In this document: positions 14,715 through 48,405 of the stretch, piece after piece
Position numbering within the stretch: the stretch's first letter is position 1
Layout of the letters: every line of letters starts with the position of its first letter
Origin: Brachybacterium saurashtrense
Lineage (GTDB): Bacteria; Actinomycetota; Actinomycetes; Actinomycetales; Dermabacteraceae
DNA length: 64,000 nucleotides
Reading direction: 5' to 3'
Assembly (NCBI RefSeq): GCF_003355475.1
Contig: NZ_CP031356.1
Location: 3,162,001-3,226,000, forward strand
Position numbers and translations under genes: made by a program
Notes under the pieces: model-generated
Told to the model about the DNA's origin: nothing
The model's database searches: none
Seen by the model: only the letters and a program-made list of their open reading frames with translations

Positions 14715-14747
14715 CGAGAGGCGGAGGGGCGGGGCGGGATGCGCCGC

Positions 14748-14819: not shown

Positions 14820-14861
14820 TGGGGTGCCCCGGCGGCGCGCCCGGAGCGCCTTGTGCCAGAA

Positions 14862-15933: not shown

Positions 15934-15941
15934 GGAGACCA

Positions 15942-30805: not shown

Positions 30806-30816
30806 TTCCTATAGGG
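30806..30816. promoter_or_regulatory. TTCCTATAGGG operator-like palindrome
   Basis: CCTATAGG is a perfect 8-bp palindrome upstream of the GntR gene at 30890. It resembles the TCCTATAGGA sites at 37897, 42276 and 44160, although the outermost pair is lost (T...G). It may be a weak member of that set or an independent autoregulatory site. Confidence 0.4.
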
Positions 30817-30889
30817 TGAGGCGGTCATCGTCGAAGTGCGGAGAGGGGCGCGCAGCCGCCCCGGCCGCGACGCGGAGGGGAGGGCCGTC

Positions 30890-31603
30890 ATGGCCGTGCG
30901 ACGTCAGGTGCTGCGCGCCGAGGTGGAGGAGCTGATCCTCCAGCGACTGCTCGAGGCCCGCTGGCCCCCCGGAGCCCGCCTCAGCATCGACGGCATGGCC
31001 CGTGACCTCGAGGTCTCTCCCACCCCGGTGCGCGAGGCGATGGTCTCCCTGGAGCGCTCCGGGCTGGTGGAGTACGTGGCCCTGCGCGGCTACGTGGTCG
31101 CCCCGATGCTCGACCCCGCGCAGATGACCGAGCTGCTGGACGCCCGTCGGGTGGTGGAGGCCGCGGCGCTGGGCCGTGCCTTCGAGGACGTCGACGCGCT
31201 GCTGGTGGACCTCGAGCGCGCGCACGCCGCGCACGGCGACGTGATCGACCGGATCACCGCGGCCGGCGAGGTCACTTACGAGCTGATCCAGGAGCACTTC
31301 CACGCCGACTGGTCCTTCCACCAGACCCTCTTCGACCACGCCGGCAACCGGTACCTCTCCACGATGGTGGAGACCGTGCGCGCCCACACCCACCGCATGC
31401 GTCAGACCTGGGTGGGCGGGCCGCCGGCTCTCGACGTGGACGAGGCCTATGCCGAGCACGGGAAGATCCTCGAGAAGGTGCGCCGCCACCACCACGACGG
31501 GGCGCTGCAGGCCCTTGAGGAGCATCTCAGCGCCGTGCTGGAGCGCTCCCACGCCGTCGCGGCCGAGGAGGCGGCGAGGGGCGCGGAGGCGACCGGCGTC
31601 TGA
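30890..31603 (+). CDS. GntR-family regulator with FCD domain
   Basis: A 237-residue regulator with winged helix near residues 20-65 (GARLSIDGMARDLEVSPTPV, then REAMVSLERSGLVEYVALRGY). The FCD domain has EHFHADWSFHQTLFDHAGNRY and its metal-binding histidines. GGAGGGGAGGG upstream favours the ATG at 30890 over an in-frame start at 30836. It ends the leucine region and may regulate the acyl-CoA dehydrogenase or the whole operon; its ligand is unknown. Its TGA stop abuts the stop of the convergent gene within a shared TGATCA. Confidence 0.8.
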   Translation: MAVRRQVLRAEVEELILQRLLEARWPPGARLSIDGMARDLEVSPTPVREAMVSLERSGLVEYVALRGYVVAPMLDPAQMTELLDARRVVEAAALGRAFEDVDALLVDLERAHAAHGDVIDRITAAGEVTYELIQEHFHADWSFHQTLFDHAGNRYLSTMVETVRAHTHRMRQTWVGGPPALDVDEAYAEHGKILEKVRRHHHDGALQALEEHLSAVLERSHAVAAEEAARGAEATGV

Positions 31604-34713: not shown

Positions 34714-35487
34714 TCAGGCCGTGGCGTGCGCCTGCGCGATCCGGAGCAACTCGAGGTAGCCCTCCAGCCGCCAGGCGGTGCGGCCCACGAACAGCCCGGT
34801 GACGTGCTCGATCCCGAGCAGGGCGGCGGCGTTGTCGAGGTTCACCGAGCCGCCGTACAGCAGCCCCGCCACCCGGCCGGAGTACTCCGCGCCGAGAGCC
34901 GCGAAGGGCTCGATGAGCTCCTCCACCGTGGCGGGCCTGCCCTTCTCGCCGATCGCCCAGATCGGCTCGTAGGCGATCACCACGCGGGAGAGCTCCTGCG
35001 GCGAGAGGCCCTCGAGGGCCCCTGCCGCCTGCTCGAGGATGAACGCGCTGGAGCCGCCGGCGTCCTTGACCTCGGCGCTCTCCCCGATGCACAGCAGCGG
35101 GGTGAGGCCGTGGCGCAGCGCCGCGGCGACCTTGAGGCGCGTGGTCTCCACCGTCTCGCCGAAGTGCTCGCGGCGTTCCGAGTGGCCGATCTCGACGACC
35201 TGCGCGCCCGCGTCCTTCGCCTGCGGGACGGAGACCTCCCCGGTCCACGCGCCGGCGTCCTCCCAGTGGGCGTTCTGCACGCCCAGCAGCACAGGGGAGT
35301 CCTCGCCCAGGATCCCCGCCACCGTGGTGGTCGCGGTGAACGACGGGATCACGAAGGGCTGCACCCCCGAGGGCGCAGCGCCGCCGTGCTCCGCGACGAG
35401 ATGGTCGCGCAGCCCCTCCGCCCAGGCGCGGCCCTCGACGAGAGTCTTGGTCATCTTCCAGCTGGTGCCGATCCAGAGGGTGGGCAT
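34714..35487 (-). CDS. lerI: Triose-phosphate-isomerase-like L-erythrulose-1-phosphate isomerase
   Basis: A 257-residue TIM barrel. Catalytic residues are Lys11 (GTSWKMTK), His102 (EIGHSERREHFG) and Glu174 (AYEPIWAIGEKG), with the phosphate loop VAGLLYGGSVN. The N-terminal GTSWKM in place of the GNWKMN of glycolytic TpiA is typical of the EryH/LerI branch. That branch interconverts L-erythrulose-1-phosphate and D-erythrulose-4-phosphate. It is followed upstream in the same operon by an RpiB-like isomerase and a DAK-type kinase, the known LerK-LerI-DerI set. A housekeeping tpiA role is less likely here. Confidence 0.75.
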   Translation of the reverse strand: MPTLWIGTSWKMTKTLVEGRAWAEGLRDHLVAEHGGAAPSGVQPFVIPSFTATTTVAGILGEDSPVLLGVQNAHWEDAGAWTGEVSVPQAKDAGAQVVEIGHSERREHFGETVETTRLKVAAALRHGLTPLLCIGESAEVKDAGGSSAFILEQAAGALEGLSPQELSRVVIAYEPIWAIGEKGRPATVEELIEPFAALGAEYSGRVAGLLYGGSVNLDNAAALLGIEHVTGLFVGRTAWRLEGYLELLRIAQAHATA

Positions 35488-35534
35488 GTCTCTCCTTGGT
35501 GTGGGGGTGCGGGGTCGGCCCGCCCGGGCTCAGG

Positions 35535-36002
35535 TCACTTCTCGAGCGAGCCGTCGTAGGCGCAGATCGCGTCGACCTTCGCGGCGGAGCTGGAGGCGGG
35601 ATCGAACTCGAGGTCCAGCCACACCTTCACCAGCTCCTTCGCGGATTCGAGGCCGATCACGCGCTGGCCCATGCACAGCACCTGCGCGTTGTTGGACAGC
35701 ACCGAGCGCTGCACGGAGTAGAGGTCGTGCGCGGTGACGGCGCGGATCCCGGAGACCTTGTTCGCCGCGATCGCGACGCCCAGGCCGGTGCCGCAGATCA
35801 GCAGCGCCCTGTCCGCCTCCCCGGCGGCGACCTTCTCCGCCGCGGCGACGGCGACGTCGGGGTAGTAGGTGCCGTCGTCCGCCGAGCCGACGCCCACATC
35901 GGCCACCGAGGCGACGCGGTCGTCGGCCTCGAGCAGGGCCTTGAGCTCTTCCTTGTGGGTGTAGCCGGCGTTGTCTCCGCCGACGATGATCCGCAGTGCC
36001 AT
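35535..36002 (-). CDS. derI: RpiB/LacAB-family D-erythrulose-4-phosphate isomerase
   Basis: A 155-residue sugar-phosphate isomerase. The N-terminal RIIVGGDNAGYTHKEEL has Asn where RpiB usually has His (DHAG), a change seen in the EryI/DerI branch. The catalytic Cys is in ICGTGLGVAIAANKV, and the C-terminal QRSVLSNNAQVLCMGQRVIG is canonical. It would convert D-erythrulose-4-phosphate to D-erythrose-4-phosphate, which enters the pentose phosphate pathway. AAGGAG precedes the ATG at 36002. It lies between lerI and lerK, all on the minus strand. Confidence 0.75.
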   Translation of the reverse strand: MALRIIVGGDNAGYTHKEELKALLEADDRVASVADVGVGSADDGTYYPDVAVAAAEKVAAGEADRALLICGTGLGVAIAANKVSGIRAVTAHDLYSVQRSVLSNNAQVLCMGQRVIGLESAKELVKVWLDLEFDPASSSAAKVDAICAYDGSLEK

Positions 36003-36097
36003 GGGTTCTCCTTCACGAGAGGGTGGTCGAGGGTCGCAGGCGGGGCCGCCTGCCAGGACGGGGTGCGGGAGTCCGGTCCCGCACCCCGGGGTCGAGG

Positions 36098-37813
36098 TCA
36101 GGACAGGTGCTGCCCGAGCTCCTTCATGAGGATCGAGAAGGAGATCGCGCCGGGATCGGGGGTGCCCACGGACTTCTCGCCGAGCACGCGGGAGCGGCCC
36201 AGCGTCGCCGTGATCGAGGCGGTGGCGTCGGCCGCCTCGCGGGCGGCTCCGGCGGCCTCGAGGATCGCGGCGGCGGCGTTCTCGCCGGTGAAGGTGCTCG
36301 CGAGCGTCTGGCGGAAGGGCACCGCCGCGTCGATCATCGTCTTGTCGCCCACCTGGGCGCCGCCCAGGCGCTGGATCGCGTCGATGCCGGCGTCCAGGGC
36401 GTCCACCACGGTGCGGGAGCCTGCCCCGTCCCGGTCGTCGAACACGCCGCCGGCGGCGATGAGGGCCGCGCCCCACAGCGCACCGGAGGTGCCGCCGGCC
36501 GATTCCGACCACGCCTCCCCGGCCCGGACCAGCAGGGTGCGGGCCCCGGCGCCGTCCTCGAGGGCGGCACGCGCCGCGGCGGCCGCCCCGCTGGAGCCGT
36601 AGGCCATGCCCTGGCCGTGGTCGCCGTCGCCCGCGATCGCATCGATCCGGCCCAGCTCGGCCTCCTCGCGGGCGCAGACGCTCTCGAACAGTGCCAGCAC
36701 CTCTGCGACCTGCGCGGCGACGGCGCGGGACTCCTCGGTGGACTCCGGGGTCTCGTCGGCCCCCGCCTCCCAGAAGGAGGTGCGGCGCGGACGCTGGACG
36801 GCCGGCATCGCGCCGCGGTGGAAGGCGGGGGTGTCCACCGGGGCGAGCCAGTGCTGCTCCAGCTCCTCGTCGAGGAACACCAGGGTGAGGGAGAGGCCGG
36901 CCATGTCGAGGCTGGTCACGAGCTCGCCCACCTCGGGACGCACGGAGGTGATGCCCGCGTCCTCGAGCAGCTCGGCCACCTTGCGGTAGACCACGAACAG
37001 CTCCTCGTACTTCACGGTGCCCAGCCCGTTCACGAGCACCGCGGCGCGGCCCTGGTAGCCGCCGTCCGTGCGCTCGGGCTGCTCGGCGAGCACGCCCTCG
37101 ACCAGCATGGCCGCGATCTCGTCGGCCGTGCCGATCGGCTGGTCGCGCACCCCGGGCTCGCCGTGGATGCCCAGGCCCACGCCCATCTGCCCCTCGGGAA
37201 CGTGGAACAGGGCGCCCTCCGCGCCGGGCAGGGTGGGGCCGTCGAAGGCGACGCCGAAGGAGCGGGTGGCGTCGTTCGCCTTCCACGCGATGCGCTCGGC
37301 GGCGTCGAGATCCGCGCCCGCCTCGATCGCGGCGCCGGCGATCTTGAACACCGGCAGGTCGCCGGCGATGCCGCGGCGGTCGCGGTGGTTCTCGGGGGTG
37401 TTGGAGATGATGTCGTCGCTGACCTTGATGATCCGCACGTCGATCCCCTCGGCGCGCAGCTTCTCCGCCGCGGCGCCGAAGTGGAGCACGTCCCCGGCGT
37501 AGTTGCCGAAGCCCAGGATCACGCCGCCGCCGTTCTGGGCGTTGCGCGCCACCGAGTAGACCTGGGAGGCCGACGGCGAGGCGAAGATGTTGCCGCAGGG
37601 CGCGCCGTGGCCCATGCCCGGACCCACCCAGCCGGCGAAGGCGGGGTAGTGGCCGGAGCCGCCGCCGATCACCAGGGCGGGCTGGCCCGCGGGGGTCTCG
37701 GTGGCGCGCACCACGCCGCCGTGCACCACGGCGACGTGGTCGGGATGGGACAGGGCGAGCCCTGCGACGGCCTCGGCGGCGAAGTCCGAGGCGTCGTTGA
37801 AGAGGTACGTCAT
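36098..37813 (-). CDS. lerK: Two-domain dihydroxyacetone-kinase-family L-erythrulose kinase
   Basis: A 571-residue ATP-dependent kinase. The DAK1 domain (1 to about 330) has VIGGGSGHYPAFAGWVGPG and the substrate-binding His217 (GVGLGIHGEPG). The DAK2 nucleotide domain (about 365-571) has AGDGDHGQGM at 395-404 and ESAGGTSGALWGAAL. Single-chain DAK1-DAK2 enzymes use ATP and phosphorylate dihydroxyacetone or erythrulose. With the LerI- and DerI-like genes next to it, L-erythrulose 1-kinase is favoured over dihydroxyacetone kinase. Its promoter region holds a perfect TCCTATAGGA palindrome at 37897, and a hairpin terminator separates it from the permease gene upstream. Confidence 0.78.
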   Translation of the reverse strand: MTYLFNDASDFAAEAVAGLALSHPDHVAVVHGGVVRATETPAGQPALVIGGGSGHYPAFAGWVGPGMGHGAPCGNIFASPSASQVYSVARNAQNGGGVILGFGNYAGDVLHFGAAAEKLRAEGIDVRIIKVSDDIISNTPENHRDRRGIAGDLPVFKIAGAAIEAGADLDAAERIAWKANDATRSFGVAFDGPTLPGAEGALFHVPEGQMGVGLGIHGEPGVRDQPIGTADEIAAMLVEGVLAEQPERTDGGYQGRAAVLVNGLGTVKYEELFVVYRKVAELLEDAGITSVRPEVGELVTSLDMAGLSLTLVFLDEELEQHWLAPVDTPAFHRGAMPAVQRPRRTSFWEAGADETPESTEESRAVAAQVAEVLALFESVCAREEAELGRIDAIAGDGDHGQGMAYGSSGAAAAARAALEDGAGARTLLVRAGEAWSESAGGTSGALWGAALIAAGGVFDDRDGAGSRTVVDALDAGIDAIQRLGGAQVGDKTMIDAAVPFRQTLASTFTGENAAAAILEAAGAAREAADATASITATLGRSRVLGEKSVGTPDPGAISFSILMKELGQHLS

Positions 37814-37896
37814 CGTGGGGTCCTCCGTGTGCTGCCGTGCGGGGGCCGACGGCGCGTGGTCGTGGGGTGCCGGGCGACGAGGTCGCGACAGTGAGA

Positions 37897-37906
37897 TCCT
37901 ATAGGA
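37897..37906. promoter_or_regulatory. TCCTATAGGA palindromic operator (lerK side)
   Basis: This is a perfect 10-bp palindrome 84 bases upstream of the kinase start. The same sequence occurs at 42276-42285, with a one-mismatch copy at 44160. It is a likely binding site for the FadR-type regulator encoded at 41433, linking the kinase/isomerase operon to the divergent acid-sugar modules. Confidence 0.65.
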
Positions 37907-37920
37907 AACGTGCGGTGCGG

Positions 37921-37986
37921 GGCGGGACGTTCCGCCCGGCCCTCCCGATCATGCGACGGGAAGCCCGGACAGCGGAACATCCCGCC
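37921..37986. terminator. Nested hairpin between permease and kinase operons
   Basis: Positions 37921-37935 and 37972-37986 (GGCGGGACGTTCCGC against GCGGAACATCCCGCC) pair over 15 bp with one mismatch. An inner stem, TCCCG (37943-37947) with CGGGA (37957-37961), lies in the loop. The hairpin starts six bases past the stop of the minus-strand GntP gene, so it probably ends that transcript before the separately controlled lerK operon. Confidence 0.6.
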
Positions 37987-37992
37987 GAATGG

Positions 37993-39426
37993 TCAGACCA
38001 CCAGCCAGGCGAGGCTGATCAGCAGCATGCCGAGCACGCCGAGCACGGTGCACATGACGGTCCAGGTCTTCAGCCCGTCGATCACCGACAGCCCCATGAA
38101 CTTCGTGGAGATCCAGAACCCGGAGTCGTTGATGTGGGACAGCGAGAGCGATCCCATCCCGATCGCCAGGATGATCAGCACGATCTGCACGGAGGAGAAC
38201 TCCCCGGAGGTCACCGTGCCCTGCACGATGCCCGCGGCGGAGAGCGTGGCCACGGTGCCGGAGCCCTGGGCCACCTTGAACGCCAGCGCCACCAGGAAGG
38301 CGAGCAGCAGGATCGGCACCCCCAGGTCCAGCAGCATGCCGGAGAGCGCATCGCCCACGCCGGTCTCGGTGAGCACCTTCGCGAACACGCCGCCGGCGCC
38401 GGTGACCAGGATGACGATCGCGGCCGGGCCCAGGGCGCCGTCCATCACCTCGCTGATCTGCTGGCGTCCCCAGCCGTGCATGCGGCCCAGCAGGTACATG
38501 GCCGCGAGCGTGGCCACCAGCAGCGCGGTCGCCGGGGCGCCCACGAAGGAGACCACGTGCGCGGCCGCGGAGTCGTCGGCCGTGAGCATCCCGCCGACGG
38601 TGCCGATCGCGATCATCACGATGGGCAGCAGGATCAGGGCGATGACCAGCGCCGCGGGCGGGCGCGTGGCCGACGGGGAATCGCCCTCGGAGGCGCCTGC
38701 CCCGAGGCCGCCGTCGCCGCCCGCCTCGCCCGCGCCGCCGGTGGGCGCGCCCACGCCGGCCGCCCCGGTGAGGGCGAACTTCCGGGCCGTCTCCGGCGAG
38801 TAGTCGACGATGTTCGCGGTGAGGCGCTTGCCCAGCACGTAGACGATGAACCCCATCGGGATCGCGAGCAGGATGCCGGCGAGGGTCACCATGCCCATGA
38901 GGTCCGCACCCAGCAGGGTGGTGGAGCCGACCACGCCGGGGTGCGGCGGCACGGTGTTGTGGATGAACACCATGAACACGGCCACGGGCATGCCGATCAT
39001 GGCCGGGCCGCGGTGGCCGGCGGCCTTCGCGAAGGCGAAGATGATCGGCACCAGGATGATGTAGGCGACGTCGAAGAAGATCGGGATCGCCACCAGGCCG
39101 GAGGAGAGCAGCAGCGCCTGCTCGAGGCGCTTCTCCCCGAGCGTGCGGGCGGCGGCGAGGGCGATCACCTCGGCGCCGCCGGTCTTCTCGATGATGCCGC
39201 CCAGCATGGCGCCGAGGCCCACGAGCAGGGCGACGTTGCCGAGGGTGCCGCCCATGCCCTCGATCATGAGAGGGACGACCTCCTGGACGGGGATGCCGGC
39301 GGCCAGGGCCGTCAGCGCGGCCACGAACAGCAGGGCGAGGAAGGCCGGCCACTTGAGCTTGATGACGGTGAGCAGGAGGATCGCGATCGCGCCGACGGCG
39401 ATGGCGACGAGGAGCAGGGGGTCCAT
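37993..39426 (-). CDS. GntP-family gluconate/acid-sugar permease (first copy)
   Basis: A 477-residue inner-membrane symporter with about 12-14 hydrophobic segments. GntP motifs include ALLVGLGAMLGGIIEKTGGA, SGLVAIPIFFDVAYIILVPI, TVPPHPGVVGSTTLLGADLM and SLSHINDSGFWI. A Gly/Ala-rich cytoplasmic loop (about 230-255) is longer than usual. GntP permeases import gluconate and other aldonates by proton symport. Here, next to an ApnO-like enzyme, the substrate may be D-apionate or a four- or five-carbon acid. It is co-directional with the ApnO and TIM-barrel genes and ends at a hairpin. Confidence 0.88.
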   Translation of the reverse strand: MDPLLLVAIAVGAIAILLLTVIKLKWPAFLALLFVAALTALAAGIPVQEVVPLMIEGMGGTLGNVALLVGLGAMLGGIIEKTGGAEVIALAAARTLGEKRLEQALLLSSGLVAIPIFFDVAYIILVPIIFAFAKAAGHRGPAMIGMPVAVFMVFIHNTVPPHPGVVGSTTLLGADLMGMVTLAGILLAIPMGFIVYVLGKRLTANIVDYSPETARKFALTGAAGVGAPTGGAGEAGGDGGLGAGASEGDSPSATRPPAALVIALILLPIVMIAIGTVGGMLTADDSAAAHVVSFVGAPATALLVATLAAMYLLGRMHGWGRQQISEVMDGALGPAAIVILVTGAGGVFAKVLTETGVGDALSGMLLDLGVPILLLAFLVALAFKVAQGSGTVATLSAAGIVQGTVTSGEFSSVQIVLIILAIGMGSLSLSHINDSGFWISTKFMGLSVIDGLKTWTVMCTVLGVLGMLLISLAWLVV

Positions 39427-39491
39427 GATGATCCTTGGTCAGGGCCGGGGGCGGGCGTCCTCGCCCACCCCCGGCAGGGGAGAGGTGCTGG

Positions 39492-40394
39492 TCAGCGCTC
39501 GATGGTGTCGAGGTCGAGCATCTGGGCGAGCACGGTGTCGAGCTCCTGGTCGTCCCAGATCTTCGTCCAGTCGGGCTTGATGAGGGAGTCGCGGCCGTAG
39601 TCCATGGCGCGCAGGCACGCCTCGGAGAACGGGTTCGAGCCGCGCAGCGCATTGGTGAGCGCGATGAAGATGTGCCCGTAGAACAGGGCCTTCACGGCCT
39701 TCTCCGGGATGCCCACCTCGTGGATCGCGTGGTCCATCGAGTCCTTGAGGAACTGGCCGATCATGCAGCCGGTGGTCTCCACCAGGGTGGGCTCGAGCTG
39801 GGCGAGCTGCTTGACGGTCACCCAGTGCACGTCGATGACGGGGGCGTAGATCGCGCGGACCACCTTCGCGACCGTCTCGCGGATCTGCTCGTCCTCGCCC
39901 TCGTAGGCGGCCACGACCTCCTGCGGGGCGGCGATGCCGCCGAAGGTGTCCGCCCACTCCTCGGGGGTGGTGCGCTCGAGGAACACCGACGGGTGGGCCG
40001 GGTGGGCGCAGGCCTGGTGCACGCCCTCGCGCTCGGCGAGCAGGCCCGCGTACGCGGCGGCCGGGTCCAGGGTGAGCAGCACGGAGCCGTCCTTCATCAG
40101 CGGCACCACCTGCTCGGAGATCGTCCCGAGCACCACGTCCGGCACCGCGAGGATCACCACGTCGGCCGCGGAGGCGGCGTCCTCGAGGGTGCTGACCTCG
40201 CGGCCCAGCTCCTTCAGGCGCTCACGGCCGGCCTCGGAGGCCTCGACGTAGTGGATCGGGGCGTCGGTGAGGTTCAGGTTGTTGGAGACGCGGGTGCCCA
40301 TCTTCCCGGCCGCGCCGACCACGGCGACCGAGATCGACGGGTCGAGCTCCACGGACTTGCCGTACAGGGGGTTCAGTTCCTTGCTGCTGGTCAT
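39492..40394 (-). CDS. apnO: ApnO-like D-apionate oxidoisomerase (6PGDH C-terminal-domain fold)
   Basis: A 300-residue NAD-dependent enzyme. The Rossmann motif VAVVGAAGKMGTRVSNNL (Gly-rich loop at 27-33) is followed by ADVVILAVPDVVLG. The rest (HPAHPSVFL, YAPVIDVHWVTVKQLAQLEP, TLVETTGCMIGQFLKD) is the helical domain annotated as phosphogluconate-dehydrogenase C-terminal. This combination matches D-apionate oxidoisomerases, which turn D-apionate into 3-oxo-isoapionate. GAAGGAG precedes the ATG at 40394. The downstream GntP permease and erythrulose-phosphate genes fit that pathway. Another aldonate dehydrogenase activity remains possible. Confidence 0.65.
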   Translation of the reverse strand: MTSSKELNPLYGKSVELDPSISVAVVGAAGKMGTRVSNNLNLTDAPIHYVEASEAGRERLKELGREVSTLEDAASAADVVILAVPDVVLGTISEQVVPLMKDGSVLLTLDPAAAYAGLLAEREGVHQACAHPAHPSVFLERTTPEEWADTFGGIAAPQEVVAAYEGEDEQIRETVAKVVRAIYAPVIDVHWVTVKQLAQLEPTLVETTGCMIGQFLKDSMDHAIHEVGIPEKAVKALFYGHIFIALTNALRGSNPFSEACLRAMDYGRDSLIKPDWTKIWDDQELDTVLAQMLDLDTIER

Positions 40395-40429
40395 CAGAGG
40401 TTCTCCTTCGAGAGTGGGGGTGTGGAGGG

Positions 40430-41263
40430 TCAGGACAGGTGGGTGCTGCGCCAGTCGCGCAGCGCGGCGAGGGTGCGGTCGGTCCAGGCGCGCTCGCGGG
40501 CGAGGGTGGCCTCGAGGTCGCCCTGCCAGGGCAGCCAGTGCTCGACGATGGCGGACGGGGCGCCGCCTCGGGCCGACGGGAGCCGGTGGCCCCGGTACAC
40601 GGCGTCGAGCTCGTGGTCGAGATCCAGCAGGCCCTCGCCGAGCGGGGCGCCGGAGAACGTGAAGCCCACCCAGCCCTCCTGGCGCGCGAAGGCGAAGTCC
40701 TTCACGTGCAGGTTCGCGGTGCGCGGCGCGCAGGCCTCCACCACGTCGCGAGGGTGCTCGAGGGCGGAGACGCAGTTGGCGGGGTCGAGGCAGATGCCCA
40801 CGTGCGGGGAGTCGAGCTCCTCGACGACGGCGAGCAGGGTGGCGGTGGGGACCTGCTCGTAGGTCTCGAGGGCGAGGGTCACGCCGGCCTCCTCGAGGCG
40901 GGGGAGCGAGGCGCGCAACTCGGCGACCGCCGCGGCGGGGCCGGCCGCGATCTCCTGGCTCTGGATCATCGAGCGCAGGGTGCGGGCGCCGAGCGCCTCG
41001 GCGATGTCGACGTAGCGGCTGAGGTGCTCGCGGCCGACGGTGCGGGTGCCGAGCTCCAGCTCGAGCCCGAGGATCTCGGCCCGTTCGCGCAGGTCGCGCA
41101 GGGCTGTGAGGTCCAGCTCCTCGATCCGCGGGTCGTCGCAGATCTGGAACACGTCGCAGCCCAGGCGCGCGGCGCGGTCGATCATCCCGGCGATGCCGAG
41201 GGGTGCGGGATTGCGCTCGGCGAACTCCCAGAACAGGGCGTAGGTGCCGATGCCGATCTTCAT
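40430..41263 (-). CDS. Xylose-isomerase-like TIM-barrel protein, candidate 3-oxo-isoapionate decarboxylase
   Basis: A 277-residue TIM barrel starting MKIGIGTYALFWEFAERNPA. Metal-ligand segments are VTLALETYEQVPTA (Glu), VGICLDPANCVSAL (Asp), TANLHVKDFAF (His) and AIVEHWLPWQG (Glu). The WVGFTFSGAPLGEGLLD segment precedes the last ligand. Family members isomerise or epimerise sugars. OiaC, a member of the same superfamily, decarboxylates 3-oxo-isoapionate to L-erythrulose. Because ApnO-, LerK-, LerI- and DerI-like proteins are all nearby, OiaC is the most economical reading. It is the first gene of the operon, behind a promoter overlapped by a 24-bp palindrome. Confidence 0.6.
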   Translation of the reverse strand: MKIGIGTYALFWEFAERNPAPLGIAGMIDRAARLGCDVFQICDDPRIEELDLTALRDLRERAEILGLELELGTRTVGREHLSRYVDIAEALGARTLRSMIQSQEIAAGPAAAVAELRASLPRLEEAGVTLALETYEQVPTATLLAVVEELDSPHVGICLDPANCVSALEHPRDVVEACAPRTANLHVKDFAFARQEGWVGFTFSGAPLGEGLLDLDHELDAVYRGHRLPSARGGAPSAIVEHWLPWQGDLEATLARERAWTDRTLAALRDWRSTHLS

Positions 41264-41304: not shown

Positions 41305-41344
41305 ACCGTAGACCCGATCCGGCCAACCGGTCAACCGGTTGGCC
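41305..41344 (-). promoter_or_regulatory. Promoter and 24-bp palindromic operator of the apionate-type operon
   Basis: On the minus strand TTGACC (-35, 41334-41329) and TACGGT (-10, 41310-41305) are 18 bases apart. The -35 box lies inside a palindrome with perfect 11-bp arms, GGCCAACCGGT (41321-41331) and ACCGGTTGGCC (41334-41344), around a CA centre. The site differs from the TCCTATAGGA motif, so a second regulator or a distinct site type is implied. Confidence 0.65.
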
Positions 41345-41432: not shown

Positions 41433-42215
41433 TCAGCCGGCGGGGGAGTCCTGCGAGGCGGCGGACTCGTCGGCGTCCGGCCCGCCGCTGTCGCGCAGGA
41501 GGCGTCGACGGGCCGAGGCCATGTGGGCGATCATCGCGGAGGCGGCGCGGTCGCCGTCGCGCGCCTCGAGCGCGGCGAGGATCTCGCTGTGCTCGTCCAG
41601 GGCGGTGCGCATGTCCTCGCCCTCGTGCACGGCGCGGTCGTTGTACACCCGCAGCAGCTGCCGGGTGACCTTCAGCAGGTCCGTGACCACCGGGTTGCCG
41701 GCGGCCTCGCCCAGCAGGGCATGGAAGGAGGAGTCCGCGGCGACGAACGCCTCCACGTCCTCGAGGCCCTCGCGCATGGTCTCGATCGTCGTGCGGAGGC
41801 GCTCGAGGCGCACCCCGTCGACCCGCTCGGCCGCCAGGCGCGCGGTGAAGCTCTCCAGCCCCGCCCGCAGCTCCATCAGCTGGTCCGTGCTGCGGGAACC
41901 GATCATCAGGCCCCAGCTGAGGGTCTGGGGGAGCAGCTCGCTGGCGCTGCCGCGAAGGTAGGTGCCGGAGCCGGGGCGCACGTCCACGATCCCCAGGATC
42001 TCGAGCGCGGCGAGGGCCTCGCGCACCGCGGAGCGGCCCACGCCGAGGGATTCCGCGAGCCGGCGCTCCGGGGGCAGGCGGGTGCCGGGCTCGAGGGTCC
42101 CGTCGGTGAGCCGCTCCAGCAGCTTCCCGGCCACACCGGAGACGGGCGTGCCCGCCGGCACGGCCGAGAGTGACGCGACGAGGGCGTCCGAGGAGCGGTC
42201 CGAGTAGGCGGGCAT
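41433..42215 (-). CDS. GntR-family regulator, FadR subfamily (FCD domain), acid-sugar modules
   Basis: A 260-residue regulator. The winged helix (RLPPERRLAESLGVGRSAVR, then EALAALEILGIVDVRPGSGTY) spans about residues 45-95. The FCD domain has AADSSFHALLGEAAGNPVVT and a C-terminal HMASARRRLL. The ATG at 42215 (MPAYSDRSS) is chosen by length. An ATG at 42290 lies upstream of the TCCTATAGGA palindrome and would put that site inside the coding region. It stands between the two acid-sugar modules and is the best candidate to bind TCCTATAGGA at 37897, 42276 and 44160. The effector is unknown. Confidence 0.8.
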   Translation of the reverse strand: MPAYSDRSSDALVASLSAVPAGTPVSGVAGKLLERLTDGTLEPGTRLPPERRLAESLGVGRSAVREALAALEILGIVDVRPGSGTYLRGSASELLPQTLSWGLMIGSRSTDQLMELRAGLESFTARLAAERVDGVRLERLRTTIETMREGLEDVEAFVAADSSFHALLGEAAGNPVVTDLLKVTRQLLRVYNDRAVHEGEDMRTALDEHSEILAALEARDGDRAASAMIAHMASARRRLLRDSGGPDADESAASQDSPAG

Positions 42216-42275
42216 GGCAGGAAAGGTACCAAGACTCGCGGTGGCGGGCCGTGGCGCTTCCCCTCCGACCAAAGT

Positions 42276-42285
42276 TCCTATAGGA
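42276..42285. promoter_or_regulatory. TCCTATAGGA palindromic operator (divergent region)
   Basis: This perfect palindrome lies in the 104-bp gap between the FadR gene (minus) and the TIM-barrel gene (plus), placing both under one site. It is identical to the site at 37897-37906. Confidence 0.7.
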
Positions 42286-42319
42286 TCCATGACGCGATCT
42301 TCCCGAGGAAAGGACGACG

Positions 42320-43240
42320 ATGTTCACCGCAGAGAACTGGCCCATCGGCGCCAACATGCTCTCGTTCGGCAGCACCACGCCGGACGGCACGCCGACCCTC
42401 GAGGCCTCGTCCTCGGTGTGGGCGTCCCAGCTGCGCCAGGTCAAGGAGCTCGGGGTCGACCAGATCGACCCCACCGACGCCTGGCTCCCGCTCGCCAAAC
42501 TCTCCGACGAGCGCGTCGAGGAGTTCCGCCGCGTGCTGGACGGCGAGGGGCTGACCCTCTCCTCGATCTCCATGACCCGCAACTCCGTGGTGGACACCCG
42601 CCGCGGCGAGGAGAACCTGGCCGACGCGCTGCGGTTCATCGAGCTCGCCCCGAGCTTCGGCGTGAGCGTGGTGAACACCGGCTTCATGCAAGACCTCACC
42701 CCCGCGCAGGCCGCGGCGATCTGGTTCTGGCTCGAGGACGGCCACGTGGACGACCCGGCGCTGCGCGACCTCGCGATCGAGCGCACCCGCACCCTCGGCG
42801 ACGCCGCGCAGGCGCAGGGCATCCAGCTCAGCCTCGAGATGTACGAGGACACCTACGTGGGCACGGCCGACGAGGCCGTCGCGTTCCTCCAGGACGTCGA
42901 CCACGAGGCCGTGGGCCTGAACCCGGATCTGGGCAACCTCGTGCGCCTGCACCGCGAGGTCGAGCCCTGGTCGGACATGTTCGAGAAGGTGCTCCCGCAC
43001 TCCAACTTCTGGCACATCAAGAACTACACGCGCGACTACGACCCGGCCACGGGGGCGTACTCGAGCGCGCCGATGCCCCTGAAGCACGGCTACATCAACT
43101 ACCGCCAGGTGATCCGTCGCGCCCTCGATCACGGCTACACCGGCCCGTTCTGCTGCGAGCACTACGGCTCCGACTCCCTCGGCGTCATCGCCGAGAACGT
43201 GCACTACATCCGCCAGGTGCTGGCCTCGGCCCTGGCCTGA
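42320..43240 (+). CDS. Xylose-isomerase-like TIM-barrel protein of the second acid-sugar module
   Basis: A 306-residue TIM barrel. Metal-ligand segments are LSLEMYEDTYVGTADEA (Glu), AVGLNPDLGNLVRL (Asp), SNFWHIKNYTRDYDP (His) and PFCCEHYGSDSLG (Glu). It is longer than the Hyi/OtnI isomerases (about 260 residues) and differs clearly from the TIM barrels at 12918 and 40430. It may isomerise a 2-oxo to a 3-oxo acid sugar, or epimerise or decarboxylate it. GAGGAAAGGA precedes the ATG. It is the first gene of the plus-strand series and is controlled through the TCCTATAGGA site just upstream. Confidence 0.65.
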   Translation: MFTAENWPIGANMLSFGSTTPDGTPTLEASSSVWASQLRQVKELGVDQIDPTDAWLPLAKLSDERVEEFRRVLDGEGLTLSSISMTRNSVVDTRRGEENLADALRFIELAPSFGVSVVNTGFMQDLTPAQAAAIWFWLEDGHVDDPALRDLAIERTRTLGDAAQAQGIQLSLEMYEDTYVGTADEAVAFLQDVDHEAVGLNPDLGNLVRLHREVEPWSDMFEKVLPHSNFWHIKNYTRDYDPATGAYSSAPMPLKHGYINYRQVIRRALDHGYTGPFCCEHYGSDSLGVIAENVHYIRQVLASALA

Positions 43241-43321: not shown

Positions 43322-44125
43322 ATGACTCTCGAGATCCGCCGCATCCAGCCCTTCCCCGATGCCCGCACGGCCGTGGTCACCGGCGCCGGCGCCGAGCGCG
43401 GCATCGGCCGGCGCGTGGTGCGCACGCTCCTCGCGCAGGGATGGAGCGTGGTCGCCGCCGACATCGACGGCGAGGCCACCGAGGCGTTCGCCGCCGAGCT
43501 CACCGCCGAGCTGCCCGAGGGCGCTGTCCAGAAGGTGCTCGGCGTGGGCGTGGACGTGAGCGACCAGGCCTCGATCGACGCCGCCTTCGCGCGCATCGAC
43601 GCCGAGATGCCGCAGGTGGTGGCGCTGGTGAACCTCGCCGGCATCCCCAGCCCCCACTCGATCTTCGAGCTCACCCCGGAGATCTGGGACCGCGTGATGG
43701 ACGTCAACGCCAAGGGCACCCTGTTGATGACCCAGGCCGCGGCGCGGCGCATGATCGACGGCGGCGTGGGCGGCCGGATCGTCAACACCGCCTCGATCAC
43801 CGCGCTGGACGGCGGCGGCACCTTCTCCAAGACCGGCTATGCCGCCGCGAAGGCCGCGATCCAGGGACTCACCCGCGGCAGTGCCCGTGAGCTGGGTCAG
43901 CACGGCATCACCGCCAACGTGATCCTGCCCGGCCCGATCGACACCGACATCATGGGCGGCACCCTCACCGAGGATCGCAAGGCCGGCATGAGCGCCGACA
44001 TCCCGCTGCAGCGCGTGGGCCAGCCCGAGGAGGTCGCCGGTCTCATCGGATTCCTCGTCGGCGAGGACTCCAGCTTCGTCAGCGGCACCTCGATCAGCGT
44101 CGACGGCGGCAAGCACATGCACTGA
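43322..44125 (+). CDS. Short-chain dehydrogenase/reductase, paralogue of the SDR at 13745
   Basis: A 267-residue NAD(P)-dependent oxidoreductase. The cofactor loop TGAGAERGIGRR is two residues longer than normal. The catalytic set is NLAGIPSP, Ser in NTASITALDGGG and YAAAK. AADIDG after the second strand suggests NAD. The longer loop, AGIPSP and GGGTFSKT motifs are shared with the SDR at 13745 (AGIPSP, GGGVFSKT) but not with the SDR at 49316. GAAGGAG precedes the ATG. It probably oxidises a polyol or acid sugar in the module; the substrate is unassigned. Confidence 0.8.
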   Translation: MTLEIRRIQPFPDARTAVVTGAGAERGIGRRVVRTLLAQGWSVVAADIDGEATEAFAAELTAELPEGAVQKVLGVGVDVSDQASIDAAFARIDAEMPQVVALVNLAGIPSPHSIFELTPEIWDRVMDVNAKGTLLMTQAAARRMIDGGVGGRIVNTASITALDGGGTFSKTGYAAAKAAIQGLTRGSARELGQHGITANVILPGPIDTDIMGGTLTEDRKAGMSADIPLQRVGQPEEVAGLIGFLVGEDSSFVSGTSISVDGGKHMH

Positions 44126-44159
44126 CGCCCACCGCTGGATCGCCCACCACTAGCCAATA

Positions 44160-44169
44160 TCCCATAGGA
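44160..44169. promoter_or_regulatory. TCCCATAGGA operator (one mismatch)
   Basis: This is a nine-of-ten match to the TCCTATAGGA palindrome, flanked as ATCCCATAGGAT. It lies 104 bases upstream of the dehydrogenase gene at 44274, the same distance order as the other sites, suggesting a separate controlled promoter. Confidence 0.5.
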
Positions 44170-44273
44170 TCAATACCCTCAGTGCTGTATCGCTGTCGCA
44201 GGATCGCCGATCCCGCACGGCACAGGCGCCCTCGCCCGCGACGGCGCGCAGCCCGGACGAAGGAGTTCCCCGC

Positions 44274-45245
44274 ATGACCATCTCCACCGTGACCATCGTC
44301 GGCGCCGGCTACATGGGCGGCGGCATCGCCCAGGTGCTCGCCATCGCCGGCTTCGACGTCACCATCGCCGACGTCAGCGTCGAGAACGCCAACGCCTCCC
44401 TCGAGCGCCTGCAGCGCGAGGCCCGCGAGTTCGAGGAGCAGGGCCTGTACAGCCCCGGCTCCGCCGATCTCGTCGCGAAGAACATCTCCGCCGGCAAGAC
44501 CCTCGAGGAGGCCGTGGCGGACGTCGACTTCATCGAGGAGGCGGTGTTCGAGCGCGTGGACGTCAAGCGCGACGTGCTCGGCACCATCTCGCAGCACGCC
44601 CGCCCGGACGCCATCATCGGCACCAACACCTCCACCATCCCGGTGAAGGAGCTGGTGAGCGCCGTGAAGAACCCCGAGCGGTTCCTCACCGTGCACTTCT
44701 CCAACCCGGCACCGTTCATCCCCGGCGTGGAGCTGGTGGCCGGCGAGGCCACCACGCCCGAGACCGTCGAGGCGGTCAAGGCGCTGCTCGCGGCCTCCGG
44801 CAACGAGGGCGCCCAGGTGGCCGACACCCCCGGCATGGTGCTCAACCGCCTCCAGTACGTGCTGCTCAAGGAGGCCACCAAGATCGTGGAGGAGGGCGTC
44901 GCCACCGCCGAGGACGTCGACACGATCGTCCGCACCACCTTCGGCTTCCGCCTGGGCTTCTTCGGTCCCTTCGCGATCGCCGACCAGGCCGGACTCGACG
45001 TGTACGCGAACTGTTTCGTCACCTTCGAGGACGCCTTCGGGGAGCGCCTGGCGACCCCGCAGCTGCTGAAGGACGCCGCCGCCGCGGACCGCAAGGGCGT
45101 CAAGAACGGCAAGGGCCTGCTGGGCGACTACGACGAGGCCACCGCGGCCGAGCTCGTCGCCTACCGCAACAAGGCCTACGCCAAGATGTCGCAGCTCCTG
45201 GCCGAGCTCGGCCCGGCGCCCACCGCCGCCCCGACGGCCGACTGA
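44274..45245 (+). CDS. 3-hydroxyacyl-CoA-dehydrogenase-fold dehydrogenase (L-gulonate 3-dehydrogenase-like)
   Basis: A 323-residue NAD-dependent enzyme. The Rossmann motif TIVGAGYMGGGIAQVLAIAG is followed by VDFIEEAVFE and TNTSTIPVKELV. The catalytic His is in LTVHFSNPAPFIPGVELV, and the helical C-domain has NRLQYVLLKEATKIVEEGVA. Such single-domain-pair proteins include 3-hydroxybutyryl-CoA, carnitine and L-gulonate 3-dehydrogenases. No CoA-pathway gene is nearby, so oxidation of an aldonate at C3 is favoured. It has its own upstream region with a TCCCATAGGA site and is followed by a hairpin terminator. Confidence 0.72.
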   Translation: MTISTVTIVGAGYMGGGIAQVLAIAGFDVTIADVSVENANASLERLQREAREFEEQGLYSPGSADLVAKNISAGKTLEEAVADVDFIEEAVFERVDVKRDVLGTISQHARPDAIIGTNTSTIPVKELVSAVKNPERFLTVHFSNPAPFIPGVELVAGEATTPETVEAVKALLAASGNEGAQVADTPGMVLNRLQYVLLKEATKIVEEGVATAEDVDTIVRTTFGFRLGFFGPFAIADQAGLDVYANCFVTFEDAFGERLATPQLLKDAAAADRKGVKNGKGLLGDYDEATAAELVAYRNKAYAKMSQLLAELGPAPTAAPTAD

Positions 45246-45442: not shown

Positions 45443-46843
45443 GTGGAAGACCTCGTCCTCGCAGACCGGCCCGTCTGGCTGCTGCTCACGATCGCCGTGG
45501 TCGCGATCGCCGTCCTGCTCGTCCTCATCATCAAGGCCCGCCTGCACGCCTTCTTCTCCCTGCTCATCGTCGCCGTCGCCACCGGTCTCGCCGCCGGCAT
45601 CGGGGTGGGGGACGTGATCGACGTGGTGATCACGGGCTTCAGCTCCACCGTGGGCACCGTGGCGCTGCTGGTCGGCTTCGGCGCCGTGCTGGGCCGACTG
45701 GTGGAGGTCACCGGCGGTGCGCAGGTGCTCGCCGACAAGATGCTCGACACCTTCGGCGAGAAGCGCGCGCCGCTCGCCCTCGCCGTCGCCTCGCTGTTCT
45801 ACGCCTTCCCGATCTTCCTGGACGCCGGCTTCATCGTGATGCTGCCGGTGATCTACACCGTGGCCCGCCGCCTGGGCGGCTCGTTCATGCTCTACGTGCT
45901 GCCCTCGATCGCGTCGTTCATGATGATGCACGCCCTGCTGCCCCCGCACCCCGGACCCACCGCCGCCGCCACCGTGATGGGTGCGGACATCGGCCTGGTG
46001 GTGCTGGTGGGCCTGCTCATCGGCCTGCCCACCTGGTACTTCGGCGGCTACCTCGTGGCCCGTGCGATCTCCCGCCGCTTCCCGGACACCCCCGTGCCGA
46101 CCCTGCTGGGCGAGCCCCGCGACGTCCCCGCCGAGGAGCGCCCCTCCTTCGGCGCCATCCTGCTGGTGCTGCTGCTCCCGCTGGTGCTGATCTTCTTCAA
46201 CACCGCGTTCTCCACCCTCGAGGCGCAGGGCACGGTCACCGCCGACAACGTCGGTTACCAGCTCTCGCGCCTGATCGGCGCCACCCCGGTGGCGCTCGCC
46301 CTCTCCGCCCTGCTGGCGATGCTGGTGCTGTACGTGCTCCCGAGGCGCCGTCGCGGCGAGGCGACCGGCGGGCTGCTCGAGGAGCTGGTGGACGACGCCC
46401 TCGGGCCCGTCTGCTCGATCATCCTCATCACCGGCGCAGGCGGTGCCTTCGGCCGGGTCCTCACCGAGACGGGGATCGGCGGCGAGGTCGCCGACGGGCT
46501 GGACGCGATGGGCCTGCCGCTGATCGTCGCCGCCTACCTGGTGACGATGGCGATGCGCATCGCGCAGGGCTCCGCCACGGTCGCCGCCACCACCGGCGCC
46601 TCGATCATGGCGCCGGCCATCATGGCCGGCGACTTCGGGGCCGTGGCCGTGGCCGCCGTGGTGATCGCCATCGGGGCCGCGTCGATCGGCTGGTCGCACG
46701 TGAACGACTCCGGGTTCTGGCTCATCGGCAAGTTCTGCGGCTTCGACACCGTCACCACGTTCAAGACCTGGTCCCTGGTGGGCACCACCATCTCGCTGGT
46801 GGGCTTCGCCCTCTCCTCGGTCGTGTTCGTCATCGCCGCCTGA
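45443..46843 (+). CDS. GntP-family gluconate/acid-sugar permease (second copy)
   Basis: A 466-residue membrane symporter. Typical GntP stretches are ALLVGFGAVLGRLVEVTGGA, LFYAFPIFLDAGFIVMLPVI, LLPPHPGPTAAATVMGADIG and WSHVNDSGFWLIGKFCG. It starts at a GTG (45443) after GGAG. It is distinct from the copy at 37993, so two different acids or separate regulation are implied. The downstream DUF1537 kinase and GarR-like dehydrogenase match the gene content of threonate/erythronate operons, which commonly include GntP permeases. A strong hairpin follows directly. Confidence 0.88.
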   Translation: MEDLVLADRPVWLLLTIAVVAIAVLLVLIIKARLHAFFSLLIVAVATGLAAGIGVGDVIDVVITGFSSTVGTVALLVGFGAVLGRLVEVTGGAQVLADKMLDTFGEKRAPLALAVASLFYAFPIFLDAGFIVMLPVIYTVARRLGGSFMLYVLPSIASFMMMHALLPPHPGPTAAATVMGADIGLVVLVGLLIGLPTWYFGGYLVARAISRRFPDTPVPTLLGEPRDVPAEERPSFGAILLVLLLPLVLIFFNTAFSTLEAQGTVTADNVGYQLSRLIGATPVALALSALLAMLVLYVLPRRRRGEATGGLLEELVDDALGPVCSIILITGAGGAFGRVLTETGIGGEVADGLDAMGLPLIVAAYLVTMAMRIAQGSATVAATTGASIMAPAIMAGDFGAVAVAAVVIAIGAASIGWSHVNDSGFWLIGKFCGFDTVTTFKTWSLVGTTISLVGFALSSVVFVIAA

Positions 46844-46978: not shown

Positions 46979-48334
46979 GTGCCCGAGACCCCTCAGCACC
47001 GACTCCTCGTGCTCGACGACGACCCCACCGGCTCGCAGTGCGTGGCCGGCGTGGACATCGCCCTGGACACCGATCCGGCGGTCGCCGCCGCGGCGCTCGA
47101 GGCGCCCGGCTCCACCTGCTTCGTGCTCACCAACACCCGTGCGCTGGAGGAGCCGCAGGCCGTGGCCCTGAACCGCCGCGTCCTCTCCGGCGTGCTCGCC
47201 GACCCCGTGGCCCGGCACGGGCTGCACGTCGTCTCCCGCTCCGATTCCACCTTGCGCGGGCACGTGATCGCCGAACCGGTCGCGCTGTGCGAGGAGCTGG
47301 CGGCGCACGGGATCGCGGTGGACGCGATCCTGCTGGTCCCGGCGATGCTCGAGGCGGGCCGCTTCACCGAGGGGGACGTGCACTACGCGGTCGTCGGCGG
47401 GGAGGCGCGACGGGTGGAGGAGACCGACTTCGCCCGCGACGCCACCTTCGGGTACCACCACTCCGACCTGCGCGAGTTCCTCGAGGAGCGCTCCGGCGGG
47501 GCGGTGCGCGCGAGCGACGTGCTCAGCCTCTCCCTCGAGGACATCCGCACCGGCGGCGTGCCCCGTGTGCGCGAGGTCCTCGCCGGTGCCCGCGAGCGCC
47601 GCTGGGTGGTGGTCAACGCCACCGAGTACGCGGACATGGAGACCGTCGCGCAGGCGGTGGCGGAGCTCGAGGCGGAGGGCCGCACGTTCCTCACCCGCTG
47701 CGGCCCGTCCTTCGTGCGCCCTCTGGCCGGGCAGCGCGGCGCCCGCGTGGTGGGCCCGGACTCGATCGCCGTCCCCGCCGGCCGTCTCGGCCACGGCCTG
47801 GTGGTGGTCGGCTCCCACGTGGGCCTCACCACCACGCAGCTGCGCGCGGTGCAGGCGCGCGGCACCCTCGTCGAGCACGAGCTCCACGTCCCCTCCGTGC
47901 TCGACGAGCGCCGCGAGGCCCACCTGGACCAGCTCGCCGCGGCCGTGCGCGAGACCCTGGGCCGCGCCGACTGCGTGCTCTACACCAGCCGCGACCTGGT
48001 GCGCACCGACGATCCCGCCGAGTCCCTCGCCATCGCCCGCAGCGTCTCCGACGCCGTGGTCGAGGTGGTGCAGCGGGTACGCGGCGCGAAGCCCGCCTGG
48101 GTGGTCGCCAAGGGCGGCATCACCTCCCACGAGGTCGCCGCGGGCGGGCTCGGGATCCGCCGCGCCCAGGTGGAGGGCCAGTTCTGGCCGGGCCAGGTCT
48201 CCCTCTTCTCCGCGCAGGAGGCGCCGGAGGAGGTGCTCGGCATGCCGTACGTGGTCTTCCCCGGCAACGTGGGCGGCGAGCAGGCCCTCGCCGACGTGGT
48301 CGACACCCTCACCGCGGCCGTCGCCGCCCGCTGA
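46979..48334 (+). CDS. DUF1537-family four-carbon acid-sugar kinase
   Basis: A 451-residue ATP-dependent kinase (OtnK/DtnK/OiaK family). The N-terminal substrate domain opens with LLVLDDDPTGSQCV (variant of the DDLTGA motif) and has HVVSRSDSTLRGHVIAEPVA and VPAMLEAGRFTEGDVHYAV. The C-terminal nucleotide domain has VAKGGITSHEVAAGGLGIRR and PYVVFPGNVGGEQAL. The GTG at 46979 follows GGAAGG and gives a full-length family start. Known members phosphorylate 3-oxo-tetronate, D-threonate or 3-oxo-isoapionate at C4. The decarboxylase/aldolase normally paired with it is not in the window. Confidence 0.85.
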   Translation: MPETPQHRLLVLDDDPTGSQCVAGVDIALDTDPAVAAAALEAPGSTCFVLTNTRALEEPQAVALNRRVLSGVLADPVARHGLHVVSRSDSTLRGHVIAEPVALCEELAAHGIAVDAILLVPAMLEAGRFTEGDVHYAVVGGEARRVEETDFARDATFGYHHSDLREFLEERSGGAVRASDVLSLSLEDIRTGGVPRVREVLAGARERRWVVVNATEYADMETVAQAVAELEAEGRTFLTRCGPSFVRPLAGQRGARVVGPDSIAVPAGRLGHGLVVVGSHVGLTTTQLRAVQARGTLVEHELHVPSVLDERREAHLDQLAAAVRETLGRADCVLYTSRDLVRTDDPAESLAIARSVSDAVVEVVQRVRGAKPAWVVAKGGITSHEVAAGGLGIRRAQVEGQFWPGQVSLFSAQEAPEEVLGMPYVVFPGNVGGEQALADVVDTLTAAVAAR

Positions 48335-48405
48335 TCCGCCCGCCCGACGTAGACCGCCCGCCGCAGCCCGCCCCGCCGCCGCCCGCTCACCCGAGGAGAC
48401 CCGCC

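Follow-up and report, generated by a model that had tools for sequence, protein, structure and literature searches.

Does a block of genes on the minus strand of the Brachybacterium saurashtrense genome encode a complete route from D-apionate to D-erythrose-4-phosphate, and does it do so as one unit? The block lies at positions 34714-41263 of a stretch of 64,000 nucleotides (contig NZ_CP031356.1 of assembly GCF_003355475.1, positions 3,162,001 to 3,226,000; the genome is a single contig of 3.72 Mb), in the following called the window. D-apionate is an acid derived from the plant sugar apiose, and D-erythrose-4-phosphate is a sugar phosphate of central metabolism. Because of trees, gene neighbourhoods and a shared operator, we consider it very probable that the block encodes proteins that import D-apionate and convert it to D-erythrose-4-phosphate, as a composite of an apionate cassette with an operator A and a tetrulose trunk with an operator B.

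The gene block and the proposed route

An initial annotation had placed six genes in a row on the minus strand. All six open reading frames are present in the order given there, and Pfam (TIM; LacAB_rpiB; Dak1 and Dak2; GntP_permease; PGDH_C, 2.4e-52; AP_endonuc_2, 4.2e-20) agrees that they encode proteins like triosephosphate isomerase (TPI) and RpiB, a DAK1-DAK2 kinase, a GntP permease, an ApnO-like protein and an AP_endonuc_2 TIM-barrel protein. The block is headed by a GntR gene.

34714..35487, minus strand: LerI-like protein, putative L-erythrulose-1-phosphate isomerase, 257 amino acids (aa); TPI fold, GTSWKM, loop 6 AIGEKGRPAT
35535..36002, minus strand: DerI-like protein, putative D-erythrulose-4-phosphate isomerase, 155 aa; RpiB fold, GGDNAG
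36098..37813, minus strand: LerK-like DAK1-DAK2 protein, putative L-erythrulose kinase, 571 aa; Dak1 and Dak2, clade
37993..39426, minus strand: GntP1, probable D-apionate:H+ symporter, 477 aa; GntP_permease 8.3e-109
39492..40394, minus strand: ApnO-like protein, putative D-apionate oxidoisomerase, 300 aa; 5t57 at 6e-56, PGDH_C, tree
40430..41263, minus strand: TIMb1, OiaC candidate (3-oxo-isoapionate decarboxylase), 277 aa; coupling to ApnO, fold
41433..42215, minus strand: GntR/FCD regulator, probable reader of operator A; GntR and FCD in Pfam

From gene content, homology and clades, which are observed directly, we infer each of the catalytic steps. GntP1 would import D-apionate, which ApnO would oxidise at C2 with NAD+, shifting the hydroxymethyl group in the manner of a ketol-acid reductoisomerase, to 3-oxo-isoapionate, a beta-keto acid. 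TIMb1 (OiaC), probably metal dependent, would decarboxylate this acid to L-erythrulose, from which LerK would form L-erythrulose-1-phosphate, LerI D-erythrulose-4-phosphate and DerI D-erythrose-4-phosphate. The GntR-TIMb1-ApnO-GntP1 unit under operator A would belong with a distant SDR-ApnL operon (SDR for short-chain dehydrogenase/reductase, ApnL for an apionolactonase-like protein) that converts apiose via apionolactone to apionate. LerK-DerI-LerI would be a trunk under operator B, common to a divergent TIMb2-SDR-HBDH module and probably older in Brachybacterium. The whole route from D-apionate to D-erythrose-4-phosphate, as the initial annotation had it, is borne out at the level of sequence, tree and context; that annotation did not cover the block's GntR gene, either operator, the divergently oriented partner module or the ApnL-like operon.

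The comparisons refer to named ApnO loci, of which the 80 best among at least 508 relatives were tallied by tblastn at 1e-15, and to the 58 of them with more than 6 kb on both sides (flank-complete). A simple codon-GC3 script called the genes of the fetched loci, with some starts wrong and some genes missed (in L042 the GntR call covers the place of TIMb1; in L138 the LerI start is cut). TIM-barrel, DAK, RpiB-like and TPI-like genes occur together in 50 of the 58 flank-complete loci; because the set recurs in this way, it is not due to chance.

ApnO and the two downstream routes

The best relative of the ApnO-like protein in the Protein Data Bank (PDB) is 5t57 (6e-56, 40% identity), whose 266 aligned residues are 100% identical to an open reading frame on plasmid pBB1 of Cupriavidus necator N-1. 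This frame adjoins OiaX-like and OiaK-like genes, so that the protein of the window is homologous to one from an OiaK/OiaX context. In Paraburkholderia sprentiae, Marivivens and Salipiger, too, genes beside or close to ApnO relatives are annotated by NCBI as OiaK or OiaX. Besides the PGDH_C domain, Pfam finds a weak match to KARI_N, a combination that fits an oxidation with alkyl shift. The closest named relatives are those of Brachybacterium (L076-L079), 80-92% identical.

A family tree, which the initial annotation had suggested as a check, groups the protein with the ApnO proteins of other actinobacteria. (The ApnO, TPI, RpiB and LerK trees were made from thinned sets of about every third or fifth locus.) Its 29 rows fall into two clades (100/100), one of six rows with the RuBisCO-like route and one of 23 rows that includes the window protein, actinobacteria, Erwinia and Pantoea; in the labels all rows without a RuBisCO-like neighbour were pooled, L112 and L120 without TIMb1 included. 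The two clades match two downstream routes. Seven proteobacterial stretches of the 5t57 type, inspected among 251 plasmid records with an ApnO match, contained an OiaX homologue in all seven cases, OiaK in six and a TIMb1 match in none. OiaX or OiaK matches at 1e-10 were found in none of the 81 actinobacterial sources (80 loci and the window), and Erwinia and Pantoea carry the TIMb1-DAK-TPI-RpiB set. Because a profile search of the genome gave no RuBisCO-like protein, the OiaX/OiaT branches look absent from it.

TIMb1 as candidate for OiaC

OiaC decarboxylates 3-oxo-isoapionate. A TIMb1 homologue was present in 77 of the 80 ApnO loci, in 76 of them within 300 nucleotides of ApnO on the same strand, and thus a candidate gene for OiaC is coupled to ApnO where no OiaK or OiaX was found. 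E133, D160, H186 and E241, an acidic/histidine quartet that we take to be metal ligands as in the TIM-barrel family, are invariant in the 76 aligned proteins, and the AlphaFold2 model is a confident barrel (predicted local distance difference test, pLDDT, 94.3). In the block TIMb1 is the sole candidate for the decarboxylation, the only step left between the ApnO product and the tetrulose trunk. Context and elimination thus support TIMb1 as the putative OiaC.

In the three loci without a TIMb1 homologue (L112, L120 and L155) an ApnL homologue adjoins ApnO. The gene after ApnO in L112, an Acidimicrobiaceae contig with ApnO and ApnL, encodes at 8573-9979 a 468-aa protein with no Pfam match at 0.001 and no NCBIfam match at 1e-10; it may be another decarboxylase.

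The tetrulose trunk

LerI has its best PDB match in 11ef ('L-erythrulose-1-phosphate isomerase'), with 239 bits versus 140 for the best TPI, and in the TPI tree it joins 11ef, which itself sits on a long branch, at 99/98 and apart from TpiA. The TPI-like proteins of most other ApnO loci form a separate clade (100/99): 45 of the 58 flank-complete loci have a match of that clade and five the LerI type (four Brachybacterium, one Nesterenkonia). DerI lies apart from RpiB in a tree with two RpiB rows only and long branches; it is 86% identical to its own paralogue beside a second DAK gene and 32% to the genome's housekeeping-type RpiB. The genome has two TPI-family matches, LerI and a housekeeping TPI elsewhere that is 37% identical to it, and no other LerI. 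Housekeeping TPI and RpiB roles for LerI and DerI are rejected on the own copies elsewhere and the trees, as the initial annotation had anticipated.

The motifs that it had regarded as branch specific fared differently from each other. GTSWKM, present in LerI of the window, in Brachybacterium L076-L079 and in 11ef, marks the LerI clade, and GVSLKMY is found in 38 of 54 TPI-like proteins of other loci. GGDNAG (window DerI and L077-L079; GSDNAG in L076) is no general mark of DerI: DNAG was seen only in Brachybacterium (five of 64 DerI rows), and 58 of the 64 read GxDDAG.

LerK, a DAK1-DAK2 kinase in a tetrulose locus, forms a clade with those of Brachybacterium, the DAK of the genome's own second locus and the Nesterenkonia locus (99/99), and the kinases of the other apionate operons form another (98/98). 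This is the split seen in the TPI-like tree; the LerK tree carries a warning of long branches. The second DAK-DerI locus, at 2.81 Mb of the genome (L039, 8113-18368), contains DAK, DerI, an ABC transporter ATPase and a zinc-type alcohol dehydrogenase and has no LerI, a content as expected for an erythritol or D-threitol route. EltD and LerK are reported to convert erythritol to D-erythrulose-4-phosphate (PMC10733421). The DerI of the second locus groups with the block DerI of Brachybacterium paraconglomeratum (98/94), which hints at gene conversion.

Import and the upper steps

GntP permeases accept various sugar acids. A GntP homologue is found in nine of the 80 ApnO loci, and it directly follows ApnO in two Agrococcus loci and one Kineococcus locus, stretches with no kinase or isomerase genes. 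The role of importer that the initial annotation gave to GntP1 is plausible on this context.

An ApnL homologue is encoded after an SDR at 3243540-3244994 of the genome, 17 kb beyond the window and 42 kb from the block. ApnL homologues occur in 30 of the 80 ApnO loci, and matches to both SDR and ApnL in 27, often directly after ApnO. Among 47 genomes of the family, 16 have ApnO (E below 1e-100), 14 ApnL and 11 both (Fisher p 6e-5, uncorrected for relatedness). Pfam finds no family in the ApnL-like proteins. One Shinella locus combines an ApnO homologue with an ApnL that exceeds the curated cut-off (813 versus 750 bits). In Shinella and Salipiger a Gfo/Idh/MocA gene precedes ApnL; in the B. saurashtrense genome an SDR is paired with ApnL instead. 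Homologues (1e-6) of five Gfo/Idh proteins of this genome occur in only seven of the 80 loci, and the Shinella Gfo/Idh protein encoded before ApnL has matches in only three (26-28%). The SDR paired with ApnL is our candidate for the apiose dehydrogenase; Gfo/Idh-type genes near 18-20 kb of the window leave a Gfo/Idh apiose dehydrogenase possible.

Nucleoside-hydrolase-like proteins (IU_nuc_hydro) are encoded beside ApnL genes in L066 (16443-18967) and L068 (6396-8480), and operator A lies upstream of one such gene in L068, L072 and L073. That they release apiose from glycosides is speculation.

Two operators

The upstream regions contain two palindromes, A and B, which together with the partner module are located as follows:

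37895..37908, no strand: putative operator B, upstream of LerK; pattern scans
41332..41341, no strand: putative operator A (CAACCGGTTG), upstream of TIMb1; genome and locus counts
42274..42287, no strand: putative operator B, upstream of TIMb2; pattern scans
42320..43240, plus strand: TIMb2, TIM-barrel protein of the partner module; full-length match to 5tnv, 8e-153
43322..44125, plus strand: SDR of the partner module; Pfam, adjoins TIMb2 in relatives
44158..44171, no strand: putative operator B, upstream of HBDH; pattern scans
44274..45245, plus strand: HBDH, 3HCDH-family dehydrogenase of the partner module; family models
45443..46843, plus strand: GntP2 permease of the partner module; family match
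30836..31603, plus strand: second GntR/FCD regulator, candidate reader of operator B; GntR and FCD, degenerate operator B site at 30807-30818

Operator A is carried by the GntR-TIMb1-ApnO-GntP1 unit. Its extended form TCAACCGGTTG has two sites in the 3.72-Mb genome, one upstream of TIMb1 and one upstream of SDR-ApnL. The core was found in 39 of the 80 ApnO loci (51 sites, with nine rearranged palindromes reaching 0-2) and is absent in exact form from the other 41. Judging from the list of sites, most of them lie ahead of the first gene of an operon, next to GntR or at SDR-ApnL; in L117, L118 and L142 the core lies directly upstream of LerK. Within the window operator A with one mismatch gives two matches versus 0.93 expected, no rarer than chance, so that the evidence for A comes from its count in the genome and from its conservation.

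Operator B (TCCTATAGGATC) is carried by LerK-DerI-LerI and is common to the divergent TIMb2 and HBDH genes. The pattern CCYATAGGATC has three sites in the genome, upstream of LerK, TIMb2 and HBDH only. With two mismatches operator B, a palindrome counted on both strands, gives seven matches in the window versus 0.77 expected, a number reached in none of 100 shuffles. The patterns of A and B read backwards, as controls for the genome scans, gave no sites.

In a sample of 23 loci (the window, 14 congeners with ApnO and eight without) TCCTATAGGA is present in all 23 with 42 sites (29 rearranged palindromes: at most one), and the core of A in 13 of the 15 loci with ApnO and none of the eight without (15 sites; one rearranged palindrome reaches six, the others listed none). 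The exact core of A was not found in L048 and L051. The initial annotation had treated the genes as one block: the gene row is indeed contiguous, but it comprises two regulatory units, of which the trunk also occurs without ApnO.

Synteny and operator distribution are direct observations, and from them we infer the pairing of regulators with operators and the order of assembly. GntR at 41433-42215, whose homologues (44-61%) head many ApnO operons outside Brachybacterium, probably reads operator A; we favour a start at 42215 for it, since with the longer frame, to 42290, the gene would overlap operator B. The second GntR/FCD gene (30836-31603), conserved beside the block in relatives, is a candidate for the reader of operator B.

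Cassette, trunk and partner module in the relatives

Of the 47 family genomes 28 have LerI (E up to 1e-60), 31 TIMb2 and 27 both; 12 of these 27 have no full-length ApnO. Eight of the 12 were sampled (G015, with ApnO cut at a contig end, G016, G026 and G029 were left out). In seven of the eight loci LerK-DerI-LerI is divergent from TIMb2-SDR with operator B between, with one extra gene between trunk and TIMb2-SDR in L163 and L166; L162 has DerI-LerI and no LerK in the slice. In the window and in ten of the 14 other ApnO-bearing congeners the ApnO cassette lies between LerK and TIMb2 (in L046 and L047 with additional genes), and in L051-L054 it is located elsewhere nearby. Since the trunk adjoins TIMb2-SDR in seven of the eight ApnO-less congeneric loci, the apionate cassette probably arrived later than the trunk, which is the simplest order; its loss from the ApnO-less genomes is a possible alternative.

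What follows TIMb2-SDR differs between loci. It can be HBDH-GntP2-DUF1537, an FMN dehydrogenase together with a D-2-hydroxyacid dehydrogenase, or PdxA accompanied by a TTT-type transporter; Paracoccus has TIMb2-DAK-PdxA-TTT. Because of these neighbourhoods we tentatively propose a second acid route into the trunk. The partner module (TIMb2, SDR, HBDH or other dehydrogenases, GntP2) might then be a so far undescribed pathway for a sugar acid that likewise leads to L-erythrulose, with LerK-LerI-DerI as the common trunk into which the cassette was plugged later, an idea that we regard as possible and rather doubtful. A linear C5 acid would be oxidised at C3 and decarboxylated, or a tetrulose product would be epimerised by TIMb2, which could be a decarboxylase or a tetrulose epimerase. 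If true, this would give a role to the TIMb2 relative 5tnv from Mycolicibacterium smegmatis, whose title states no function.

GntP2 is followed, at 46979-49290 of the window, by genes for a DUF1537 kinase and for a protein resembling L-threonate dehydrogenase (245.8 bits, cut-off 350). The kinase at 46979, a weak D-threonate kinase match (66.8 bits versus a cut-off of 450), was considered as OiaK and rejected: the window has no OiaK match at 1e-10, and no RuBisCO-like gene was found in the genome.

Weighing the assignments

Several findings weigh against the D-apionate route in its composite form. L112, L120 and L155 have ApnO with no TIMb1 homologue found, and L112 and L120 fall into the ApnO clade of the window. 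The folds closest to the TIMb1 model are D-tagatose 3-epimerases (ketose 3-epimerases), so that the fold alone does not indicate a decarboxylase, and a sequence comparison of TIMb1 with the PDB gave no match at E 0.001. Homologues of TIMb1 (32-33%) occur elsewhere on three plasmids with the OiaX route (Shinella, Marivivens, Salipiger); the family is thus not confined to the OiaC route. By the standard models LerI counts as a TPI (361 bits, cut-off 293) and DerI as an RpiB (200.8 bits, cut-off 168.2). DerI stays below the D-erythrulose-4-phosphate isomerase model NF051858 (149.8 versus 240 bits), whose short name suggests a scope of Rhizobiales, and 3qd5, deposited as a putative ribose-5-phosphate isomerase, nests within the DerI clade. 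The ApnL of the genome, homologous and divergent, reaches 153.5 bits in its best piece against NF049900 (cut-off 750), and five of the 16 ApnO-bearing family genomes have no ApnL match. The operator patterns were chosen after the upstream regions had been read, and the related genomes are non-independent samples.

Homology is the only basis for the substrate, ApnO is 40% identical to 5t57, and the permease family is broad in its sugar acids; ApnO and TIMb1 could therefore act on some other sugar acid, branched or linear, such as a different stereoisomer. We consider this unlikely, since TCAACCGGTTG is common to SDR-ApnL and occurs nowhere else in the genome, and since ApnL homologues accompany ApnO in the 30 loci mentioned above and, above the curated cut-off, in Shinella. 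It is quite improbable, too, that LerK-DerI-LerI serve only the TIMb2-SDR-HBDH pathway and that the product of the apionate cassette is used elsewhere. Trunk and TIMb2 do have operator B in common and occur without ApnO, and no core of operator A lies upstream of LerK in the 14 ApnO-bearing congeners scanned. However, other actinobacteria usually have the DAK, RpiB-like and TPI-like set within the ApnO operon, operator A can be directly upstream of LerK (the three loci named above), and the genome offers no other LerI, not even in its second DAK-DerI locus. An exchange of roles, with TIMb2 as the 3-oxo-isoapionate decarboxylase and TIMb1 as an isomerase, would agree with the epimerase folds nearest to TIMb1 and with the membership of both proteins in AP_endonuc_2; it is very improbable given that a TIMb1 homologue adjoins ApnO in 76 of the 80 loci and that TIMb2 is present in genomes without ApnO.

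Relation to known systems

The catabolism of D-apiose and D-apionate through ApnO and OiaC to L-erythrulose was reportedly described by Carter et al. in 2018. The window resembles that route in having ApnO, a TIM-barrel OiaC candidate and an L-erythrulose trunk, with an ApnL homologue in the genome; unlike it, the window has two operators and two modules, and its LerI is of the 11ef type, whereas the TPI-like clade is usual in other ApnO loci. With the proteobacterial ApnO-OiaK-OiaX (RuBisCO-like) route it has the ApnO family in common, but in a separate clade, and differs in having no OiaK or OiaX match in the window and no RuBisCO-like gene found in the genome. The D-apiose/D-apionate work of Carter et al. 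(2018) is cited in PMC6302742, and PMC11747546 describes growth on D-apiose and genes for ApnO, OiaK and a decarboxylase in a Rhodobacteraceae strain. Tetritol catabolism in M. smegmatis (PMC10733421 and PMC12780249) uses the same types of LerK, LerI and DerI and also ends in D-erythrose-4-phosphate; unlike there, the feeders neighbouring the trunk of the window look like sugar-acid genes. The SDR of the partner module could be a tetritol dehydrogenase.

The D-apionate route itself is already known. In the open-licence literature searched, nothing was found on the composite structure, on either operator or on the SDR in the role of apiose dehydrogenase, nor on Brachybacterium with apiose. The analysis finds a conserved apionate operon across many actinobacteria, among them Microbacterium, Curtobacterium, Arthrobacter and Streptomyces, points to a substrate cassette linked to a trunk under regulation of its own, offers with the SDR a possible second type of apiose dehydrogenase, and provides two operator sequences that make the regulons testable.

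Elsewhere in the window, at 9740-17839, genes for a TRAP permease (DctM) and a TIM barrel of the AP_endonuc_2 family lie together with those for an SDR and the halves of a split transketolase. On pSymB of Sinorhizobium meliloti TRAP genes and transketolase halves are grouped with an SDR and with a TIM barrel that resembles TIMb1 (33%).

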